From the NCBI RefSeq assembly GCF_030555055.1, contig NZ_JAMOAO010000001.1, positions 5,952,001 to 6,016,000 of the forward strand: DNA of 64,000 nt. The letters are read 5' to 3'. This document shows, piece by piece, positions 37,516 to 46,676 of this stretch (position 1 is its first letter; every line of letters starts with the position of its first letter). The translations under genes were made by a program, and so were the position numbers. Source of the stretch: Nocardiopsis sp. YSL2. Lineage in GTDB: Bacteria > Actinomycetota > Actinomycetes > Streptosporangiales > Streptosporangiaceae. A model generated the notes under the pieces. It did no database searches. It had not been told where the DNA came from and saw only the letters and a program-made list of their open reading frames with translations.

Positions 37516-38838
37516 ATGGACCAGCAGCGTCCCGACCAGCACCGATCCCCGCGCGGACGACGACCCCGGCGGGCGGCGGCCCCGGCGCGCCTTCACCGGC
37601 GCCTGCGAGGGATCGCGGCCTCACTGCTCGCGTTCGGGCCGCTCCTGGCCCCGGCCGCCGTCCCGGCCCCGGCGTGGGCGGACGAACCCGCCGCCCTGCC
37701 CCAGGTGACCCAGTTCAAGGGCGCCGACGACGCGTGCGCCGAGCCCGGGGCCGACGTCGTGGAACGGGTCCCGTGGACCTTCCCCGCCCTGGGGCTGGCC
37801 AGCGCCCACGAGCTGAGCCGGGGCGGCGGCGTGTCCGTCGCGGTCCTGGCCACCGGCGTGGACGGACGGGTGCCCGCGCTGGCCGGCGCCGTCGCAGGCG
37901 GCGGATCCGAGGACTGCCTCGGGTACGGGACCTTCCTGGCAGGGGTGGTGGCCGCCCGGCCCGTGCCGGGGAGCGGATTCGTGGGGGTGGCTCCCCAGGC
38001 GGCCGTGGTCCCCGTCCCGACCGGTGACGCGGACACGGGGATCGCCTCCCCGGACGACCTCGCCTCGGGCCTCGGCGCGGCCGTCGACGCGGAAGCGCGG
38101 GTGGTCCTGGTGGGCACGGCGGCCGTCGAGGGCTCCGACGCCCTGGACGAGGCGGTCGCCGCGGCGGCGGAGGCGGGCGTGCTCGTGGTCGCCCCGGCCA
38201 CGGTGCTCACGTCGGAGGGCCCGGCCCCCGGCCACCCGGCTCAGGACCCCGCCGTGCTGAGCGTGGCCGCACACGACGCCGACGGGGCGCCGGTCCTGGC
38301 CGAACCGCTGGTCAGGTTCGACGGCGAGCTGGCACGGGTCGACGTCACCGCGCCCGGGGACCGCGTTCTGAGCGTGGGCCCGGGCGGGGAGGGCCACGTC
38401 ACGGCCGGAGGCGACGGTGTGGCCGCCGCCTTCGCCGCGGGCACCGCCGTGCTGCTGGCCTCGCGCGAACCGGACGCGGGCCCGGAGGAGATCCGGGAGC
38501 GGTTGACGGCGACCGCCTACGGCTCTCCCCTGGGCCCGCGCGACCCGGTCGTGGGCAGCGGGCGGATCGACCCGCCGGGCGCGCTGTCCGGGGATCCGGT
38601 CGCCGCCGCCGAGGCGGGGGCGGCGGTGGGCGCGGGCGAGCCCTTCGTCCCGGACCCCTCCCCCCGCGGATCGGTGCGGGTCCCCCCGACCGTGGCGGCG
38701 GTGGGCGGGGCCGGGCTGGTCGTGGTGCTGTGCTCGCTCGCGGGGGCGGTGCTGCGCAACGGCCGGACCCGGGGCTGGCGCCCGGCCTCCGCGGGTGAGC
38801 GGGTGACCCCCGAGGAGGACCCGCGCCCGCTCATCTGA
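37516..38838 (+). CDS. mycP: Mycosin-like subtilase with all catalytic residues lost (pseudo-MycP)
   Basis: This is a 440-residue protein with the mycosin layout: an Arg-rich N-terminus with signal sequence (cleavage near AWA-DEP), an S8 subtilase-fold domain (about residues 75-360), a Pro-rich linker and a C-terminal membrane helix (about 393-416). The catalytic positions are replaced. The Asp site reads VLATGVDG (Ala112 for Asp), the His site reads GYGTFLAG (Tyr137 for His) and the Ser site reads GGDGVAAAF (Gly301 for Ser). The Asn of the oxyanion hole is also not evident. The codons are clear in the DNA. It should not be a protease. In mycobacteria, mycosin presence rather than activity is needed for ESX secretion, so a structural role is plausible. 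I chose the ATG at 37516 for its GGAGAG site. Confidence 0.88.
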   Translation: MDQQRPDQHRSPRGRRPRRAAAPARLHRRLRGIAASLLAFGPLLAPAAVPAPAWADEPAALPQVTQFKGADDACAEPGADVVERVPWTFPALGLASAHELSRGGGVSVAVLATGVDGRVPALAGAVAGGGSEDCLGYGTFLAGVVAARPVPGSGFVGVAPQAAVVPVPTGDADTGIASPDDLASGLGAAVDAEARVVLVGTAAVEGSDALDEAVAAAAEAGVLVVAPATVLTSEGPAPGHPAQDPAVLSVAAHDADGAPVLAEPLVRFDGELARVDVTAPGDRVLSVGPGGEGHVTAGGDGVAAAFAAGTAVLLASREPDAGPEEIRERLTATAYGSPLGPRDPVVGSGRIDPPGALSGDPVAAAEAGAAVGAGEPFVPDPSPRGSVRVPPTVAAVGGAGLVVVLCSLAGAVLRNGRTRGWRPASAGERVTPEEDPRPLI

Positions 38839-38844
38839 AACGGT

Positions 38845-38874
38845 GGGCGGCCCGGTCCGGGCCCCGGGCCGCCC
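38845..38874. terminator. Bidirectional terminator hairpin between mycP and eccC
   Basis: A perfect 11-base stem (GGGCGGCCCGG, 38845-38855, with CCGGGCCGCCC, 38864-38874) and an 8-base loop lie between the two convergent genes. The hairpin begins 6 bases after the mycP stop and touches the eccC stop. Confidence 0.75.
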
Positions 38875-41800
38875 TACTCCGAAGCTCCTTCGGCGATGGC
38901 GAGCTGGACCTCGACGGGGTCGCGCCGGGAGATCCACAGCGCGCGCCCCGGGGGCATCTTGCGCGCCCGGATATTGCCGAACAGCATGCCCTCCGACGGC
39001 GGGCACGACAGCATGATGCTCGGTGTGTTGAAGTCGATGAGCGAGCGGATGACGGGGTCGGAGGAGGCCCGGGCGAAGCCGCCCGCCGCGTGCACCAGGA
39101 TGACGTGCATGCCGATCTCGGCGCCCTGGGCGAGCAGTGGCAGCAGCGGTGAGAGCGGGCTCGGCCCGCTCCCGGAGACCATCTCGAAGTCGTCGATGAC
39201 CAGGAACAGCTCCGGCCCCGTCCACCAGTCGCGCTTGCGGATGCGCTCGGGTTCGATGTCGGGTCCGGGCAACCGGGCCTTCATCGCCTGGGCGGCGGCG
39301 ATCATCATCTCCTTGACGTTGTCGGCCGAGACCGCGTAGCCGAGCTGCATCTCCTTGGGAACGGCGTCGAAGAGCTGGCGCCGCTGGTCGGCCAGGACCA
39401 CGCGGGCGGTACTGGCGCCGTAGTGCTCGCGGATCGCGTTCGTGATGTGGCGGAGCAGGGTGGTCTTGCCGGTCTCGGTGTCGCCGACCACGATCAGGTG
39501 CGGCGTGGCGGAGAAGTCGTGCCAGAACGGCTGCATCCGACGGCTCTCCAGGCCCAGCGCGACCTTCAGCCCCCCGCCGGGGGTCAGCTCGGGCGCGGGC
39601 AGGTCCGCCGCGTGCAGCACCCTGGGCAGTGTGCGCACGGGCGGCGCCTCGGGACCGTCCCAGGCGTCGCGGACCCGCTCGATGAGCTCGGCCACCCCCA
39701 CCGAGAGCGTGACCGGGTCGGCGTCGCCGTCGGCCCGGGGCAGGCCGGTGAGGAAGTGGTACTTGTCGTCGGTGATCCCGCGGCCCGGCACGCGGGGGAC
39801 GGTCTGGGCCACGCGCATGTGCACCATGGAGTCGACCGGATCGCCCAGCCGCAGCTCGATCCTGGTGCCCATCAGGTCGCGCACGCCGGTGTTGAAGTCG
39901 GCCCAGCGGGGGGACGCCACCACGACGTGCAACCCGTAGTTGAGGCCGCGCTGGACGAGCTGGACGATGGGGGCGACCAGGTCGGTGAGGTCCTGGCGGA
40001 TGGTGCCCCATCCGTCGATGACGAGGAAGACGTCGCCGTGGGGCTGGTCGGCGAACTCGCCCGCGGCGCGGCGGCGCCGGTAGGTCGCCATCGAGTCGAT
40101 GCCGTTCTCCGCGAAGAACGTCTCCCGCGTGGTGATCAGCTCGTGCATCTCCATGATCGTGCGGTTGATGCGCCGCTCGTCGGTGCGCGCGGCGACGCTG
40201 CCCACGTGCGGCAGGGAACCGAGTGTCTGGAGCACGCCGCCGCCGCAGTCGATGCCGTAGAACTGCACCTGGGCGGGGGTGTTGAGGACGGACAGCCCGA
40301 GGATGAGCGAGGCGAGCAGCGTGCTCTTCCCGCTCTGCGGGCCGCCCGCGATGCCCACGTGGCCGCCCGCTCCCGTCAGGTCGGCGGTGAGGGGCAGCCG
40401 GGTGTGCTCGAAGGGCCGGTCGACCATCCCGAGCGGGACCTTCAGCCGTCCGGTGTCGGTCCAGGCCAGGCCGCCCTCGGGCAGGCGGACACCCACCATG
40501 CGCAGCAGTTCGTCGAGGAGGGGCGGCACGTCCAGGGGCGGCAGCCAGACCTCCCGGGCCGCGGGGCCGCGGCCGTGCAGCCGGTCCAGGGCCACCGCCA
40601 GGAGCGTGTCCGGATTCTCCTCGGTCTCCTCCTCGACGGGCGCCTCGGGTTCGGGGGCGGTCAGGGGCACGTACGCGTCCGCGAACGGCACGACCTCGCC
40701 GCCCACGGTGTGGCGCCGCGCCGTTCGCGGACGCGCCCGGTAGGCCCCCGAGACGTAGGCGGCCTTGAAGCGGATGAGCGTCTCGGTGTCGGTCTTGAGA
40801 TAGCCGTTGCCGGGTGAGGACGGGAGCTGGTGGGCGTCGGGGACGCCCAGCACGCCGCGGCTCTCGATGGCGGAGAAGGTGCGCAGCGCGATCCGGTAGG
40901 ACAGGTGCCCCTCCAGCTGGTGCGTGCGGCCCTCGTCCAGGCGCTGCGAGGCGAGCAGCAGGTGCACGCCCAGGCTGCGGCCCAGGCGGCCGATCATGAC
41001 GAAGAGGTCCATGAAGTCGCGGTGGGCGGCCAGCAGCTCGCTGAACTCGTCGACGACCACGAACAGCGTCGGCAGCGGGTCCATGGAGGGGTCGGCCTCG
41101 CGGGCCCGCTCGTACTCGTGCACGGAGCTGAAGTTCCCGGCGGCGCGCAGCAGTTCCTGGCGGCGGATCAGCTCGCCGTGCAGGGCGTCCTGCATGCGGT
41201 CGACGAGGATCGCCTCGTCGGCCAGGTTGGTGATCAGGGCCGAGGTGTGCCGCAGCCCGTCCAGGCCGATGAAGGTGGCGCCCCCCTTGAAGTCGACGAG
41301 GACGAAGTTGAGCGTCTCGGAGGAGTGGGTCATCGCGAGCGCAAGGACGAGCGTCCGCAGCAGTTCGCTCTTGCCGGAACCGGTGGCGCCGATCAGCATG
41401 CCGTGCGGCCCCATGCCGCCCAGTGCGGATTCCTTGAGGTCCAGCTCCAGCGGCGCGCCCTCCGCGGTGATGCCGATGGGCACGCGCAGCCGGTTCTTGG
41501 GGTGCAGCTCGCTCCACATGCGCTCGGTGTCGTGGGCGTGCAGGTCGGGGACGCCGACCAGGGTGGTGAGCTCGAAGTCCGTGGTCAACGGCTCGGTGAC
41601 CTCGACCTGCATGCTGACCCGGTAGGGGGCCAGGAGCCGGGCCAGGCTCGTGGCACGGGTGGGGCTGAGGGCGTCGGGCCTGCCGAGACCGGTCTCGACG
41701 GCGCGTCCGCTGTGGTCCTGGGAGAGGGCCACGAGCCGGTCCTCCTCGACGCGCAGGGAGAGGGTGTAGGGGTCGTCGTCGGGCGGCATGGGGTCGGCCA

Positions 41801-42839
41801 CGTCGATGACGACGGCGTTGCGGTAGCCGCCGCCGAGCAGGCGCGAGCCGACGGGCACCTCGCCGCCGTCGACGACGATGACGGTGTAGGGCTCCTCCCG
41901 GTTCGGGACGGCCGCGGGATCGTAGCGCGGGCGATCGGCCATGTCGTCGCCGATGAGCCGTTCCAGTTCCAGTGCGTTGGCGCCGAGCAGGCGCGCGGAT
42001 CCGGCGCCGTCGCGCGCGGAGTGGTGCTGGGTGTGCGGCAGCCACTTCGTCCACGCCCAGGCGGAGCGGGTCTCGTCCGAGGCGCACACGGCCACGCGCA
42101 TCTCGTCGTGGGCGTGGAAGACGGTGAGCTGGCCGACGAGGGCGCGGACCAGGGCGCGGCAGGCCTCGGTGTCGCCGCGCAGCGAGACCCGGGCGTAACC
42201 CCGCAGGTAGACCTGGACGGGCTGGTCCTCCACGGTGCCGTAGGCGCGGATGAACCGGCGCAGCGCGTGCGCGGTGAGGGGTTCGAGGTCCTCCACCGGT
42301 TTGGAGGCGACCGGGGAGATGGTCATGGCCATCGCCTGCTCTCCCACGCCGATCCGCACCTCGGCGAAGTCGGGGTCCTCGGCCCGACGCTCCCACAACC
42401 GGGAGGTCCGCACGACCGACCACAGGGCGTCGGGCTGCGGCGCCCGCCAGAGCATGGCGTCGCGCTGCTCGGTGACCACCTCGCGCAGCCGCGAGCGCAT
42501 CTGCCCGAGGTAGCGCAGGTAGTCGCGCCGGTCGTCGTTGAGTCTGCGCCTGCGCTCCAGTTGGGTGCGCAGGTACTGGCCCCCGAGCATCGCCACGGCG
42601 CCGACGAGCATCATGCCGCCCGCGACGTAGGGCATGAACGAGCCTCCGCCACCGCCGCCGGGGCGGATGAAGAGCATCATCATCGCCATCGAGGTCAGGG
42701 CCATCGGCAGGTACATGAAGATCGACGACATGCTCGACTGCGGTTCGGCCAGCTCGGGCGGCTCCTGGAGGGTGATCTCGCCCTGGGGCAGGTCGGGGCC
42801 GGGGCGGCGGGGCGGTCGGCGGACGAGGATCGTGCTCAC
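38874..42839 (-). CDS. eccC: EccC, FtsK/SpoIIIE-type ESX secretion ATPase
   Basis: This is a 1,321-residue core motor of the type VII system. Two membrane helices lie near the N-terminus (about residues 40-60 and 70-90), followed by three P-loop domains: Walker A GATGSGKS at 484-491, GGPQSGKS at about 832 and GDTETGKT at about 1119. The matching Walker B strands are LFVVVDEF, VFLVIDGW and LFLVIDDF. The acidic catalytic residue after the Walker B Asp is present only in the first (DE), as is usual for EccC, where domains 2 and 3 bind substrates. It is a single chain, not split as in ESX-1. I chose the GTG at 42839 because AAAGGAGG lies 10 bases in front; a further ATG frame upstream runs through that site. 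Confidence 0.96.
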   Translation of the reverse strand: MSTILVRRPPRRPGPDLPQGEITLQEPPELAEPQSSMSSIFMYLPMALTSMAMMMLFIRPGGGGGGSFMPYVAGGMMLVGAVAMLGGQYLRTQLERRRRLNDDRRDYLRYLGQMRSRLREVVTEQRDAMLWRAPQPDALWSVVRTSRLWERRAEDPDFAEVRIGVGEQAMAMTISPVASKPVEDLEPLTAHALRRFIRAYGTVEDQPVQVYLRGYARVSLRGDTEACRALVRALVGQLTVFHAHDEMRVAVCASDETRSAWAWTKWLPHTQHHSARDGAGSARLLGANALELERLIGDDMADRPRYDPAAVPNREEPYTVIVVDGGEVPVGSRLLGGGYRNAVVIDVADPMPPDDDPYTLSLRVEEDRLVALSQDHSGRAVETGLGRPDALSPTRATSLARLLAPYRVSMQVEVTEPLTTDFELTTLVGVPDLHAHDTERMWSELHPKNRLRVPIGITAEGAPLELDLKESALGGMGPHGMLIGATGSGKSELLRTLVLALAMTHSSETLNFVLVDFKGGATFIGLDGLRHTSALITNLADEAILVDRMQDALHGELIRRQELLRAAGNFSSVHEYERAREADPSMDPLPTLFVVVDEFSELLAAHRDFMDLFVMIGRLGRSLGVHLLLASQRLDEGRTHQLEGHLSYRIALRTFSAIESRGVLGVPDAHQLPSSPGNGYLKTDTETLIRFKAAYVSGAYRARPRTARRHTVGGEVVPFADAYVPLTAPEPEAPVEEETEENPDTLLAVALDRLHGRGPAAREVWLPPLDVPPLLDELLRMVGVRLPEGGLAWTDTGRLKVPLGMVDRPFEHTRLPLTADLTGAGGHVGIAGGPQSGKSTLLASLILGLSVLNTPAQVQFYGIDCGGGVLQTLGSLPHVGSVAARTDERRINRTIMEMHELITTRETFFAENGIDSMATYRRRRAAGEFADQPHGDVFLVIDGWGTIRQDLTDLVAPIVQLVQRGLNYGLHVVVASPRWADFNTGVRDLMGTRIELRLGDPVDSMVHMRVAQTVPRVPGRGITDDKYHFLTGLPRADGDADPVTLSVGVAELIERVRDAWDGPEAPPVRTLPRVLHAADLPAPELTPGGGLKVALGLESRRMQPFWHDFSATPHLIVVGDTETGKTTLLRHITNAIREHYGASTARVVLADQRRQLFDAVPKEMQLGYAVSADNVKEMMIAAAQAMKARLPGPDIEPERIRKRDWWTGPELFLVIDDFEMVSGSGPSPLSPLLPLLAQGAEIGMHVILVHAAGGFARASSDPVIRSLIDFNTPSIMLSCPPSEGMLFGNIRARKMPPGRALWISRRDPVEVQLAIAEGASE

Positions 42840-42914
42840 GGAGCGGGTGCCTCCTTTGGACGCGGTGACCGGAATGGGCCCTCGGGGGCCACCCGTTCCC
42901 ATAATGCCAAGCAA

Positions 42915-42951: not shown

Positions 42952-42995
42952 CCGTAACACACACACTTCCAATAGGATGTCACTCGGTGTTACGG
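42952..42995. promoter_or_regulatory. 9-bp inverted repeat between eccC and eccD
   Basis: CCGTAACAC (42952-42960) and GTGTTACGG (42987-42995) are perfect inverted copies, 26 bases apart. The right arm overlaps the candidate eccD -10 box. GTGTTACG also occurs at the candidate promoter of giant gene 2 (22651-22658). It could be a regulator site controlling both directions. Confidence 0.45.
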
Positions 42996-42996
42996 T
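42967..42996 (+). promoter_or_regulatory. Candidate eccD operon promoter
   Basis: TTCCAA (42967-42972), an 18-base spacer and TACGGT (42991-42996) show the same geometry as the candidate promoters of both giant genes. The predicted leader is about 37 bases. Confidence 0.45.
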
Positions 42997-43039
42997 CACT
43001 CACACTCCAGAACAAGTCGCCCGAATGGGTGGGAATCCG

Positions 43040-44440
43040 ATGAACGATCCTGCCGCCGCGGACCTGTGCCGCCTCCTCATCCGCGCCCCCAGCAGGTCCT
43101 TCGAGATCGCCGCACCGTCGGAGGTGCCCCTGTCCGAGCTGCTGCCGACCTTCGTGCTCTACGCCGAGGGCGACAACGGCGAGGACCTCGACGAGAGCGG
43201 GCTCGAACACGACGGCTGGGTGCTGCAACAGCTCGGCGACGAGCCGTTCGAGGAGGACGAGACCATCAGGTCGCTCGGCCTGTGCCACGGGGAGACGCTC
43301 TACCTGCGCCCCCGCCGGGACCAGCTCCCGCCCATCCACTTCGACGACCTCACCGACGGGGTCGCCACGGGCATGTCCGAGCGCCCCGACCGCTGGCGCC
43401 CCGCCTTCACCCGGGGCCTGCTGCAGTGCCTGGGCCTGCTGGTCCTGCTCACCTGCCTGGTGGTCCTGGCCACCGGCGGCCCCGGCGGGCTGACCGCGCT
43501 GACAGCCGCGTCCTCGGCGGTCCTGATGCTGCTGTCGGCGTGGGCGGCCTCCCGCGCGATGGGCGACCTGCCGGCGGCCACCGGACTCGCCGCGATGGCG
43601 ACCCTGTACATGGCCGTGGCCGGGGCCGCCGTCCCCACGGGCGAGCCGGGACTGGCGCTGCTCGGTGCGGTCCTGCTCACCGCGGCGATGTGCGCGGCCG
43701 GGGCGACGGTGCTGGGCCTGGCGGCCGTGGCCGGATCGGTGCCGTTCTTCACCGGGCTGTTCACCGTCGAGGTGCACGTCGTGCTGGGTGCCCTCTCGCT
43801 GATGTTCCTGCCGGGCGCCTCCGTGGCCGCCGTGGCGGGCCTGATCGCGCTGCTCGCCCTGCTCACCGGTACGTTCGCCCCGCAGTTGGCGTTCCGCATG
43901 GCCGGGCTGCGGCTGCCCCCGCTGCCCGCCAACCCCGAACAGCTCCAGGAGGGCATCGAGCCCTTCCCGGCGCGCGCCGTCCTGGACCGCGCGCACCTGG
44001 CCGACCGATTCCAGACCGCCCTGTACGCGTCGACGGGCGCGGTGCTCACCGTGTGCCTGGTCACGCTGGCCGTGTCGACCGGCTGGGTCGCGGCGACGAT
44101 GTGCGTCATCGTGTCCCTGGTCATGCTGCTGCAGACACGCGGCCTCGCGAGCGCCTGGCAGCGCGTGTCCATGGTCGCGCCGGCCTGGATCGGCCTGACC
44201 GCGCTCGCCCTGGACGGCGCCCTGGCGTCCTCCCCCCTGACGCGCTCGCTGACCCTGCTCGCGCTCCTGGCCGTCACCACGGTCCTGGCGCTCGTCTCGT
44301 GGTCGGTACCCGGGCGCCGGCAGCTGCCGCACTGGGGCAGGGCCGCCGAGATCATCCAGCTCCTGCTGTGCGTGGCGGTCTTCTCCCTCGTCCTGGCGGG
44401 CTTCGGCGCCTTCGGTGCCCTGCGCTCGATCGGCGGGTGA
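43040..44440 (+). CDS. eccD: EccD, ESX membrane channel protein
   Basis: This is a 466-residue protein with an N-terminal ubiquitin-like (YukD-type) domain of about 90 residues (LLIRAPSRSFEIAAPSEVPL through GETLYLRPRRD), a short basic linker and about eleven transmembrane helices to the C-terminus. EccD forms the bulk of the ESX inner-membrane complex with EccB and EccC. The ATG at 43040 follows a GTGGGA stretch; an ATG 15 bases earlier is possible. It is divergent from eccC and followed after one base by eccB, so they form one operon. Confidence 0.94.
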   Translation: MNDPAAADLCRLLIRAPSRSFEIAAPSEVPLSELLPTFVLYAEGDNGEDLDESGLEHDGWVLQQLGDEPFEEDETIRSLGLCHGETLYLRPRRDQLPPIHFDDLTDGVATGMSERPDRWRPAFTRGLLQCLGLLVLLTCLVVLATGGPGGLTALTAASSAVLMLLSAWAASRAMGDLPAATGLAAMATLYMAVAGAAVPTGEPGLALLGAVLLTAAMCAAGATVLGLAAVAGSVPFFTGLFTVEVHVVLGALSLMFLPGASVAAVAGLIALLALLTGTFAPQLAFRMAGLRLPPLPANPEQLQEGIEPFPARAVLDRAHLADRFQTALYASTGAVLTVCLVTLAVSTGWVAATMCVIVSLVMLLQTRGLASAWQRVSMVAPAWIGLTALALDGALASSPLTRSLTLLALLAVTTVLALVSWSVPGRRQLPHWGRAAEIIQLLLCVAVFSLVLAGFGAFGALRSIGG

Positions 44441-44441
44441 G

Positions 44442-45890
44442 ATGCAGTCACGTCGCGACCGTGTCATGGCGCACACGTTCACCGTGGGACGCCTGGGCAC
44501 GGCGATGCTGGAGGCCGACCCCGACGCGGTCGACGCTCCCATGCGCCGCACCCGGACAGGCACCTACGTCGGCATCGCCATCGCCGCGCTGGTGTGCGTC
44601 GGCTTCCTCGTCTTCGGCCTGATCTTCCCCGGAGGCGCCAGTACCTGGCGCCAGGAGGGCCGGTTGGTCATCGACAAGGAGAGCGGCGCCTCCTACCTGT
44701 ACTCCGACGGCACGCTGCGACCCGTCGCCAACTACGCCTCCGCCCGCCTGATCCAGGGCCCGGACGCGAACGTCTCGCTGGTGTCCGCGCGCTCCCTCGA
44801 GGGCGTGCCCGTGGGAGGGCCGGTCGGCATTCCCGGGGCTCCCGACGCACTGCCCGGCGCCGAGGCGCTCGCCTCCGCGGTCTGGCGCCTGTGCGCGCTG
44901 CCCGCGCAGGCAGACGAACGGCCCCGGACCGCACTGACCATCGGCACGGCACCCGAACCCTCGCCCCCGGACGACGGCGAGGCGGTCCTGGTCGCGGGCC
45001 CCGACGGCGACCGCCACCTGCTCTGGCGGGGTACCCGGCTGCGGCTGGACGAGGACGGCGGGGCCGTCCAGGCGCTCGGCTACGGAACCAGCCCCGCCTA
45101 CGAGGTCGCGGGCGCGTTCCTGGACGCCGTACCCACCGCGCCCGACCTCACCGCCCAGGAGGTGCCGCAGGCCGGAGCGGACGGCCCCTCGCTGGCGGGC
45201 GCCCCGCGCCGGGTCGGCCAGGTGTTCGCGGTGTCCACCCCCGACCGCCCGGACCAGCACTACCTGCTGACCCCGGACGGCCTGGCCCCCCTGACCCTCA
45301 CCCAGGCCCTGCTCCTGCTCGCCGACCCCGGCCACGGCGAGGCCGCCTACCCCGACACCGCTCCGGAGCCGATCGCGATCCCCGCCGGGGAGGCGCACGA
45401 CCACCTGGTGGCGGGCGGCGAGGCGGCCCCGGACGGGAACGCACGCACGCCCGACGCCCCGCCCGAGCTCCGGCCGGCCGGCGGCGAGGTCCCCTGCCTG
45501 CGGCTCGGCGACGGCGGTGACCTGTCCCTGACCATGGACGATCCCGGATCCGTCCAGGCCCTGCCCGTCCAGGAGGTCCCCGCCATCGCCCCCGGCTGCC
45601 CGACGCCCGACCTGATCGGCATCCCCTCCGGAGGCGGGTCCGTGGTGCGGGCCCGGCCGGTCGACGGCGCCACGAACACCCCCACCCACTACCTCGTCAC
45701 CGACGCCGCCGCCAAGTTCCCCGTGGCGGACACCGACGTCCTGGACGGGCTCGGCCTGACCGCCGGAGCGGCGGCGGAGGTGCCCACACCGCTGCTCCGT
45801 CTGATGCCCACCGGGCCGGTCCTGCACCCCGAGGCCGCCGCCCGTCCCCTCACACCCTCCGCACGGGCCGAGACCGCGGAGTGCCCCTGA
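44442..45890 (+). CDS. eccB: EccB, ESX membrane-anchored core protein
   Basis: This is a 482-residue protein starting MQSRRDRVMAHTFTVGRL, a start typical of EccB. One membrane helix (about residues 39-61) is followed by a large extracytoplasmic domain with the EccB repeats (for example GTLRPVANYASARLI, near the helix) and conserved Cys residues around 142, 347 and 377. The ATG lies one base after the eccD stop; the longer frame starting at 44415 lies inside eccD. EccB links the inner-membrane channel to the envelope side and to the mycosin. No EccE gene follows it here. Confidence 0.94.
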   Translation: MQSRRDRVMAHTFTVGRLGTAMLEADPDAVDAPMRRTRTGTYVGIAIAALVCVGFLVFGLIFPGGASTWRQEGRLVIDKESGASYLYSDGTLRPVANYASARLIQGPDANVSLVSARSLEGVPVGGPVGIPGAPDALPGAEALASAVWRLCALPAQADERPRTALTIGTAPEPSPPDDGEAVLVAGPDGDRHLLWRGTRLRLDEDGGAVQALGYGTSPAYEVAGAFLDAVPTAPDLTAQEVPQAGADGPSLAGAPRRVGQVFAVSTPDRPDQHYLLTPDGLAPLTLTQALLLLADPGHGEAAYPDTAPEPIAIPAGEAHDHLVAGGEAAPDGNARTPDAPPELRPAGGEVPCLRLGDGGDLSLTMDDPGSVQALPVQEVPAIAPGCPTPDLIGIPSGGGSVVRARPVDGATNTPTHYLVTDAAAKFPVADTDVLDGLGLTAGAAAEVPTPLLRLMPTGPVLHPEAAARPLTPSARAETAECP

Positions 45891-45970: not shown

Positions 45971-46306
45971 ATGCCGGATCCCAGGACACGCAACACAGAC
46001 GAGGCCAACCGACTCGCCAAGGAGGCGATGGACGAGGCCCACACCACCTGCAACAACGTCTACACCCAGGTCGACGGCACCCGTGACGTCCTGCGCTCCT
46101 CCTGGCACGGCGCCGCGGCCAACAAGTACAGCGAGGCCCTGGTCGGGTGGCTGGAGGAGCTGCGGCTCATCACCAACGACATGAACCGGATGATCGGCAC
46201 GTTCGGAGGCACCGTGAACGCGATGCACGCGACCGAGGACGCCAACCTCCTGGAGGGCTCCCGGTGGATGGCCGACCTCAACCCGAACCAGACCAGCGCG
46301 AACTGA
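45971..46306 (+). CDS. WXG100-family ESX protein (EsxA/B type)
   Basis: This is a 111-residue helical-hairpin protein. The turn motif is SSWHGAAANKY, with W45-H-G47 as the WxG, between two predicted helices. No signal peptide is present, as is usual for ESX substrates. It lies 80 bases after eccB, with GAGGAGCGAAGGA in front of the ATG. It probably forms a heterodimer with the next protein and is exported by EccC. A Trp-containing C-terminal segment (about residues 95-103) extends beyond the hairpin. Confidence 0.9.
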   Translation: MPDPRTRNTDEANRLAKEAMDEAHTTCNNVYTQVDGTRDVLRSSWHGAAANKYSEALVGWLEELRLITNDMNRMIGTFGGTVNAMHATEDANLLEGSRWMADLNPNQTSAN

Positions 46307-46379: not shown

Positions 46380-46676
46380 ATGGACGGATTCGACGTCAGC
46401 TACGGGTACGTCGACGAGGCGACGCAGGCCCTGCGGCGCCAGACCGACACCGTCGCGCGTGCCATCGAGAACCTGGACGCCCAGATGCAGCCCGTCAAGG
46501 CCGACCTCGAAGGCGCCACGGCCGACAACTACGACGCCAAGGTCCGCAGCTGGCGGATGAACGTCGAGGACATGCGCACCCTGCTGGGCAAGGCCGAGTT
46601 CGCGCTGAACACCATCCGCAACAACTACTCCGGCACCGACAGCCGCGAGGCGATGGAGTGGGCGTCGCTGATGTAG
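46380..46676 (+). CDS. WXG100-size ESX partner with YxxxD export motif
   Basis: This is a 98-residue helical-hairpin protein paired with the upstream WXG100 gene. The turn has L43-E-G45 instead of WxG. The C-terminal tail has Y83-S-G-T-D87, matching the general type VII export signal YxxxD/E right after the second helix. In known pairs one partner carries this motif and binds EccC. The GGAAGGGGAAG stretch before the ATG is a good ribosome binding site. The next gene is 156 bases away, beyond a strong hairpin. Confidence 0.88.
   Translation: MDGFDVSYGYVDEATQALRRQTDTVARAIENLDAQMQPVKADLEGATADNYDAKVRSWRMNVEDMRTLLGKAEFALNTIRNNYSGTDSREAMEWASLM

Follow-up and report, generated by a model that had tools for sequence, protein, structure and literature searches.

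A mycosin homologue without catalytic residues, probably kept for a structural role, in the ESX locus of Nocardiopsis sp. YSL2

The mycosin gene and its catalytic columns

The window analysed here is a stretch of 64,000 nucleotides from Nocardiopsis sp. YSL2 that carries an ESX (type VII, T7SSa) secretion locus. Its mycosin gene, P0001, is flanked by a small open reading frame (ORF) lying behind a giant one and by a convergent gene for an EccCa-EccCb fusion, followed by genes for EccD, EccB and two WXG100-type proteins (Table 1). The frame of P0001 is unbroken, running from an ATG start through 440 residues with zero internal stops, and the original prediction, which was made from the letters of the window, was right that an intact gene sits within an ESX locus. 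The product has none of the four active-site residues of MycP1.

P0001 matches Peptidase_S8 in Pfam (53.2 bits against a cut-off of 21.8), and its best NCBIfam family is TIGR03921 (T7SS_mycosin), for which it scores 171.7 bits, below the equivalog cut-off of 278.75. Because triad-complete mycosins also score just under this value (L076 and L077, for example, at 277 bits), we regard TIGR03921 as a weak criterion of membership. The subtilase domain, the N-terminal extension and the cysteine pair are all present, and mark P0001 as a mycosin homologue by descent. Cys74 and Cys134 presumably form a disulfide, as in MycP structures. A structure model predicts a subtilase/mycosin fold, with mean predicted local distance difference test (pLDDT) values of 91-99 per 10 residues over the core (residues 61-360), and it predicts helices at residues 27-39 and 389-418 that are hydrophobic by sequence. 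As modelled, the protein would keep the mycosin layout proposed from the letters, since signal-region helix, subtilase core, linker and C-terminal helix all appear. PADLOC made no call for P0001. A scan of named genomes, which gave two loci only, found a relative at 85% identity in Nocardiopsis sp. NRRL B-16309.

The triad columns were placed by local alignment to solved MycP1 (4hvl, 4kpg). Alignment gives the same three positions for Asp, His and Ser as had been read from the sequence (Ala112, Tyr137 and Gly301), and the oxyanion Asn, previously described as not evident, is replaced by Val230. We take Asn239 of MycP1 to be the oxyanion Asn. Among the mycosins MycP1, MycP3 and MycP5, MycP1 has Asp-His-Ser by alignment and Asn239 (PMC5082899), whereas P0001 has none of the four.

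The substitutions are shared by relatives. Across 30 Nocardiopsis loci, our own included, no readable row has Asp (0/29) or Ser (0/30); the His column holds Tyr or Phe in 25/29 and His in 4/29, and the Asn column holds Val or Ala in 29/29. Forty-eight database sequences of Nocardiopsidaceae type, P0001 among them, give a similar picture: Ala 35, Gly 7, Val 3 and Ser 3 at the Asp column; Tyr 25, Phe 19 and His 4 at the His column; Val 33, Ala 13 and Thr 2 at the Asn column; and Gly 36, Pro 5, Ala 4 and Val 3 at the Ser column. Invariant columns of this type include Cys74, Cys134, Trp87 and many Gly, Ala and Pro residues. No close relative with an intact triad was found beside which this copy might appear frameshifted. 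Chance or a single sequencing error was rejected as the cause, given that the substitutions recur across Nocardiopsis loci.

Table 1. Features of the P0001 gene and its surroundings (positions are those of the window)
Feature	Position	Strand	Basis
Pseudo-mycosin gene P0001, 440 aa	37516..38838	+	ORF, Pfam, NCBIfam, MycP1 alignment, fold model
Putative N-terminal signal sequence	37516..37680	+	Predicted helix at residues 27-39; end near residue 55 inferred
Cys74, cysteine of N-terminal extension	37735..37737	+	C in 47/47 readable sequences of type; column of a MycP1 Cys
Ala112, catalytic Asp column	37849..37851	+	Alignment to MycP1; context VAVL[A]TGVD
Cys134, presumed disulfide partner	37915..37917	+	C in 48/48 sequences of type; column of a MycP1 Cys
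Tyr137, catalytic His column	37924..37926	+	Alignment to MycP1; context DCLG[Y]GTFL
Val230, oxyanion Asn column	38203..38205	+	Alignment
Gly301, catalytic Ser column	38416..38418	+	Alignment to MycP1; context GGD[G]VAAAF
C-terminal helix, residues 389-418, presumed membrane anchor, behind low-confidence linker	38680..38769	+	Structure model
EccC, EccCa and EccCb fused, three Walker A-like motifs	38874..42914	-	Pfam, NCBIfam
EccD, YukD and EccD membrane domain	42977..44440	+	Pfam, NCBIfam
EccB, expected binding partner, the genome's only EccB match	44415..45890	+	Pfam, NCBIfam, genome search
WXG100-like protein 1	45971..46306	+	26.4 bits, just under cut-off 27.3; kept in 10/10 loci
WXG100 protein 2	46380..46676	+	Profile match; kept in 10/10 loci
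Giant ORF, 4754 aa	22765..37029	+	
Giant ORF, 3636 aa	9356..20266	+	
Small ORF, 145 aa	37022..37459	+	No Pfam match

Maintenance of the gene and order of residue loss

EccB was found in 31 of 40 Nocardiopsis genomes, and the identical 31 carry a match of P0001 type (weakest E value 6e-29); the other nine have neither. Three of these nine match weakly, through two copies of an unlinked paralogue and one ordinary subtilisin. Some of the matches are divided in the assemblies: that of EccB is split in G009 and G019, the mycosin of G019 lies on two contigs and that of G022 is truncated where its contig stops. In all ten Nocardiopsis loci fetched, the mycosin is next to the genes for EccC, EccD, EccB and both WXG100 proteins, and this synteny recurs in five of five loci from other genera of the family (L157-L161), none of which retains Asp or Ser; one, L160, retains His. 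Within the same loci EccC and EccD are better conserved than the mycosin.

The ratio of nonsynonymous to synonymous substitution (dN/dS, omega) was estimated by the Nei-Gojobori method for 36 genome pairs with dS <0.4, which share genomes among them. Mycosin omega had a median of 0.34 (range 0.18-0.54), with 0.30 for the core and 0.36 for EccB. Genus-wide conservation, co-occurrence with EccB, synteny and dN/dS support the earlier proposal that P0001 is a maintained pseudoprotease and not a decaying gene. One Nocardiopsis genome, G011 (contigs C38, C56 and C60), carries two matches to EccB and two P0001-type mycosins (L173, L172), neither of which has Asp or Ser (AHG and AYG at the Asp, His and Ser columns).

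The main tree was inferred by maximum likelihood from 99 non-redundant mycosins with the catalytic columns masked, and 11 triad-complete mycosins from the same order served as its outgroup. All 77 sequences without the oxyanion Asn form one clade, with support of 99/97 (bootstrap/Shimodaira-Hasegawa-like approximate likelihood ratio test), and the 31 Nocardiopsidaceae-type rows form a clade inside it (100/98). Streptomyces-type ESX mycosins (P0042, P0063, P0060 and relatives) and a Kitasatospora-type group (P0079 and relatives) belong to the clade of P0001 and likewise lack the Asn. Many of them retain Asp-His-Ser or two of the three, whereas only the Nocardiopsidaceae-type branch is without Asp, Asn and Ser throughout, with His mostly gone.

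A loss-only count on the 99-row tree gives one loss for Asn, five for Asp and 11 for Ser (nine by Fitch parsimony); for His, Fitch gives at least eight changes, apparent returns included. No row keeps Asn after the loss of a triad residue. The counts were unchanged (Asn 1, Asp 5, Ser 11, Fitch 9) in a quick tree with the Asn region and its neighbours also masked. Three sequences on long branches (P0055, P0056, P0084) had been dropped from the 99-row set, along with rows >72% identical with the same state; in a 134-row set that includes these three, Asn needs two changes, not one. That larger set has no genus loci and no short rows, and excludes 14 listed rows as well as rows that are >85% identical and share a state. 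The underlying alignment of 221 sequences includes two empty rows (act_L052, act_L054), which inflate its count of sequences with everything lost. Because the sequences were collected by similarity to P0001 and its kin, the set shows the order of losses, not their frequency. The tree suggests that Asn was lost first and once and the triad residues then repeatedly.

A further reading, plausible enough to put forward tentatively though we stop short of favouring it, is that a single loss of Asn at the base of the Streptomyces, Kitasatospora and Nocardiopsidaceae types converted the protein from protease to structural subunit. The triad would then have decayed independently many times, most fully in Nocardiopsidaceae, with an unlinked paralogue decaying in parallel. 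If this is true, type VII secretion has an entire branch that works without its signature protease, and the dead site may have been reused as a gate, or as a cradle that holds giant substrates without cutting them.

Eleven loci beyond the family were also fetched. Seven, all from one genus (g56), have EccB, EccC and EccD beside the mycosin, and read DHS at the Asp, His and Ser columns in L167, L169, L171 and L174, DHE in L168, GHS in L165 and SYA in L162. The full set of ecc genes was not seen in L163, L164, L166 and L170, two of which are short contigs; the fetched stretches of L163 and L164 (both of Kitasatospora type, matches of P0079) showed no ecc gene. L170 (G248:C1:1629000-1648500, from another family) has three mycosin-like genes near EccC, with sites DHD, DTE and DRA. 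A Kitasatospora/Streptomyces group within P0075-P0154 has Gly at the Asp column and mostly reads GHS, a separate route to loss.

Role of the protein in the ESX complex

Secretion and complex stability depend on MycP1 and MycP5 but not on their protease activity (PMC5082899), in agreement with the statement in the original prediction that mycosins are required for a stable complex apart from proteolysis. A MycP5 trimer caps the EccB5 chamber, and the periplasmic assembly is disordered without MycP5 (PMC8131196). P0001 has kept the shell and lost the chemistry, which matches this mycobacterial division between secretion and proteolysis, and we therefore propose that it is a catalytically dead mycosin homologue kept as a structural subunit that caps or clamps the ESX membrane complex, an assignment we consider probable. 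From the same work (PMC5082899, PMC8131196) we infer by analogy the cap or clamp role and the contact with EccB; the protein would lack proteolysis, and these bacteria would need no substrate processing. P0001 would be exported via its signal sequence and anchored via its C-terminal helix, with the subtilase-fold domain on the outer side of EccB. There it would hold the dimers of EccB and the barrels of EccD together in a single secretion complex, the part that MycP5 plays in Mycobacterium ESX-5, and would act without cleaving a substrate. Two options had been offered for this protein, and the one in which a structural role is the only one left seems the better.

Several observations weigh against this assignment. 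His is still present in 4 of the 48 Nocardiopsidaceae-type sequences, and residual or different chemistry may persist in the cleft. P0001 reads ALSGDP where MycP1 has ALTWD, leaving no equivalent of MycP5 Trp523, which is named at the EccB5 interface (PMC8131196); the Trp of ALTWD is probably the counterpart of Trp523, judging from the alignment. Because the related active mycosins compared are also without this Trp, its absence does not single out P0001. L218, from another genus of the family (G057:C1:898691-899638), is a 148-bit mycosin-family match with Asp, His, Asn and Ser, and disturbs an otherwise clean family-wide picture. Mycosin omega exceeds that of EccB in 20 of the 36 pairs, and does so in all eight disjoint pairs (mycosin omega 0.24-0.41); constraint is therefore clear yet somewhat weaker than on EccB, and the P0001 gene is under purifying selection of that lesser strength. 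Finally, both the co-occurrence with EccB and the pairwise dN/dS values are phylogenetically non-independent.

An unlikely alternative is that the cleft has been repurposed to bind peptides without hydrolysing them or to act as a gate, for example as a holdase or plug for the giant substrates encoded nearby, with the Tyr or Phe of the old His column filling it. Such a residue is found in 44/48 sequences, upstream of the mycosin are two giant ORFs whose leaders are identical, and the active sites of MycP5 face the secretion lumen (PMC8131196). In addition, placing a bulky Tyr in the groove of MycP1 stops cleavage but spares secretion, with the same effect as a Ser mutant (PMC5082899). The authors of that mutant, however, conclude that secretion does not require substrate binding (PMC5082899), and giant-ORF pieces are not found upstream of the mycosin in all ten relatives. 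Nor would one expect the old catalytic columns to be only averagely conserved in the clade (33rd-57th percentile of columns 81-360) if they formed a new conserved binding site.

The structural assignment also has to be set against the improbable case that proteolysis occurs in trans, with another protease or a second mycosin-like gene doing the cutting and P0001 acting as a regulatory or scaffolding partner. Peptidase_S8 matches five loci in the genome. Three of these (L001, L002, L003) are subtilases with intact triads, but by inspection they are without the mycosin layout and are no closer than 90 kb to the sole EccB. A genome search for a second mycosin, suggested in the original prediction, gave one protein of that layout, L005/L175 (G000:C1:1930694-1932019, outside the window), which has a hydrophobic C-terminal stretch and a basic tail and has lost Asp, His and Ser. 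Its family occurs in 40/40 Nocardiopsis genomes, the nine without EccB included, and is fragmented in five draft genomes. Among the copies read, our own included, Asp, His and Ser are missing in 30/30 and Asn is aligned in 2/30, and all matches in the 40 genomes score below the TIGR03921 cut-off. L218, from another genus of the family, has all four residues and speaks for this case. An active mycosin elsewhere in this genome was rejected after inspection of all five subtilases and scoring of the 40 genus genomes, leaving the second of the two options unsupported.

By alignment, the L005 family appears to be a core pseudoprotease, and two paralogues have thus lost catalytic residues within the same bacterial family. 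Related proteins in other genera of the family range from one with Asp-His-Ser and no Asn (L208) to ones with none left (L211, L217); the row of L213 is empty and was unused in this comparison. Three named Streptomyces relatives (P0231, P0232, P0237) retain all four residues.

It is very improbable that P0001 is still an enzyme whose active site lies elsewhere or is of another kind. Asp133 and Asp352 are conserved, but across the 48 sequences every well-filled column falls short of 98% conservation for Ser and for His, which argues that the active site has not moved, and both conserved cysteines align with those of MycP1. An intact Asp-His-Ser set elsewhere in the sequence was looked for without success, and relocation of the triad within the protein was rejected. 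Least credible is a decaying gene that has yet to lose its frame, rejected because frames are open in the genus loci read, the linkage to EccB is strict and selection is purifying (omega ~0.34), with invariant cysteines and Trp and a confident predicted fold, even though all catalytic residues are gone, conservation is below that of EccC and EccD, and omega is above EccB's in the eight disjoint pairs.

A non-catalytic role of mycosins was already known; what appears to be new is a natural, clade-wide and ordered loss. In the open-access literature covered, consulted in part and exclusive of subscription journals, we found no report of a natural catalytically inactive mycosin. ESX secretion depends on mycosins, yet engineered mutants do without their proteolysis, and the question has been why they persist as proteases. 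Here a whole bacterial family appears to offer a natural separation-of-function experiment, repeated and in a consistent order. Comparison of dead and live mycosins could map the surfaces that the machine needs, and ask which substrates make proteolysis worthwhile. The database name "S8 family serine peptidase" probably overstates the activity of these genes. EssB/YukC is unrelated to mycosins and ESX in both fold and system. Reported to be a pseudokinase of the Firmicutes T7SSb (PMC9600267), it is a functional parallel, a dead-enzyme core membrane component.

Neighbouring genes

The components encoded at this locus are those listed for ESX-4 systems, namely EccB, EccC, EccD, MycP and two WXG proteins (PMC4791881). 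EccE had no match in this genome, but the control genomes gave none either, so its absence is not established.

The two giant ORFs share an identical sequence over their first 219 residues, and the longer contains three stretches matching ADP-ribosyltransferase exoenzyme (PF03496). Lying beside ESX genes, they resemble polymorphic type VII substrates of large size. The small ORF overlaps the end of the longer giant ORF, directly upstream of the mycosin. It recurs in the loci of two of the ten relatives (L117, L118), and is possibly an immunity or chaperone gene.
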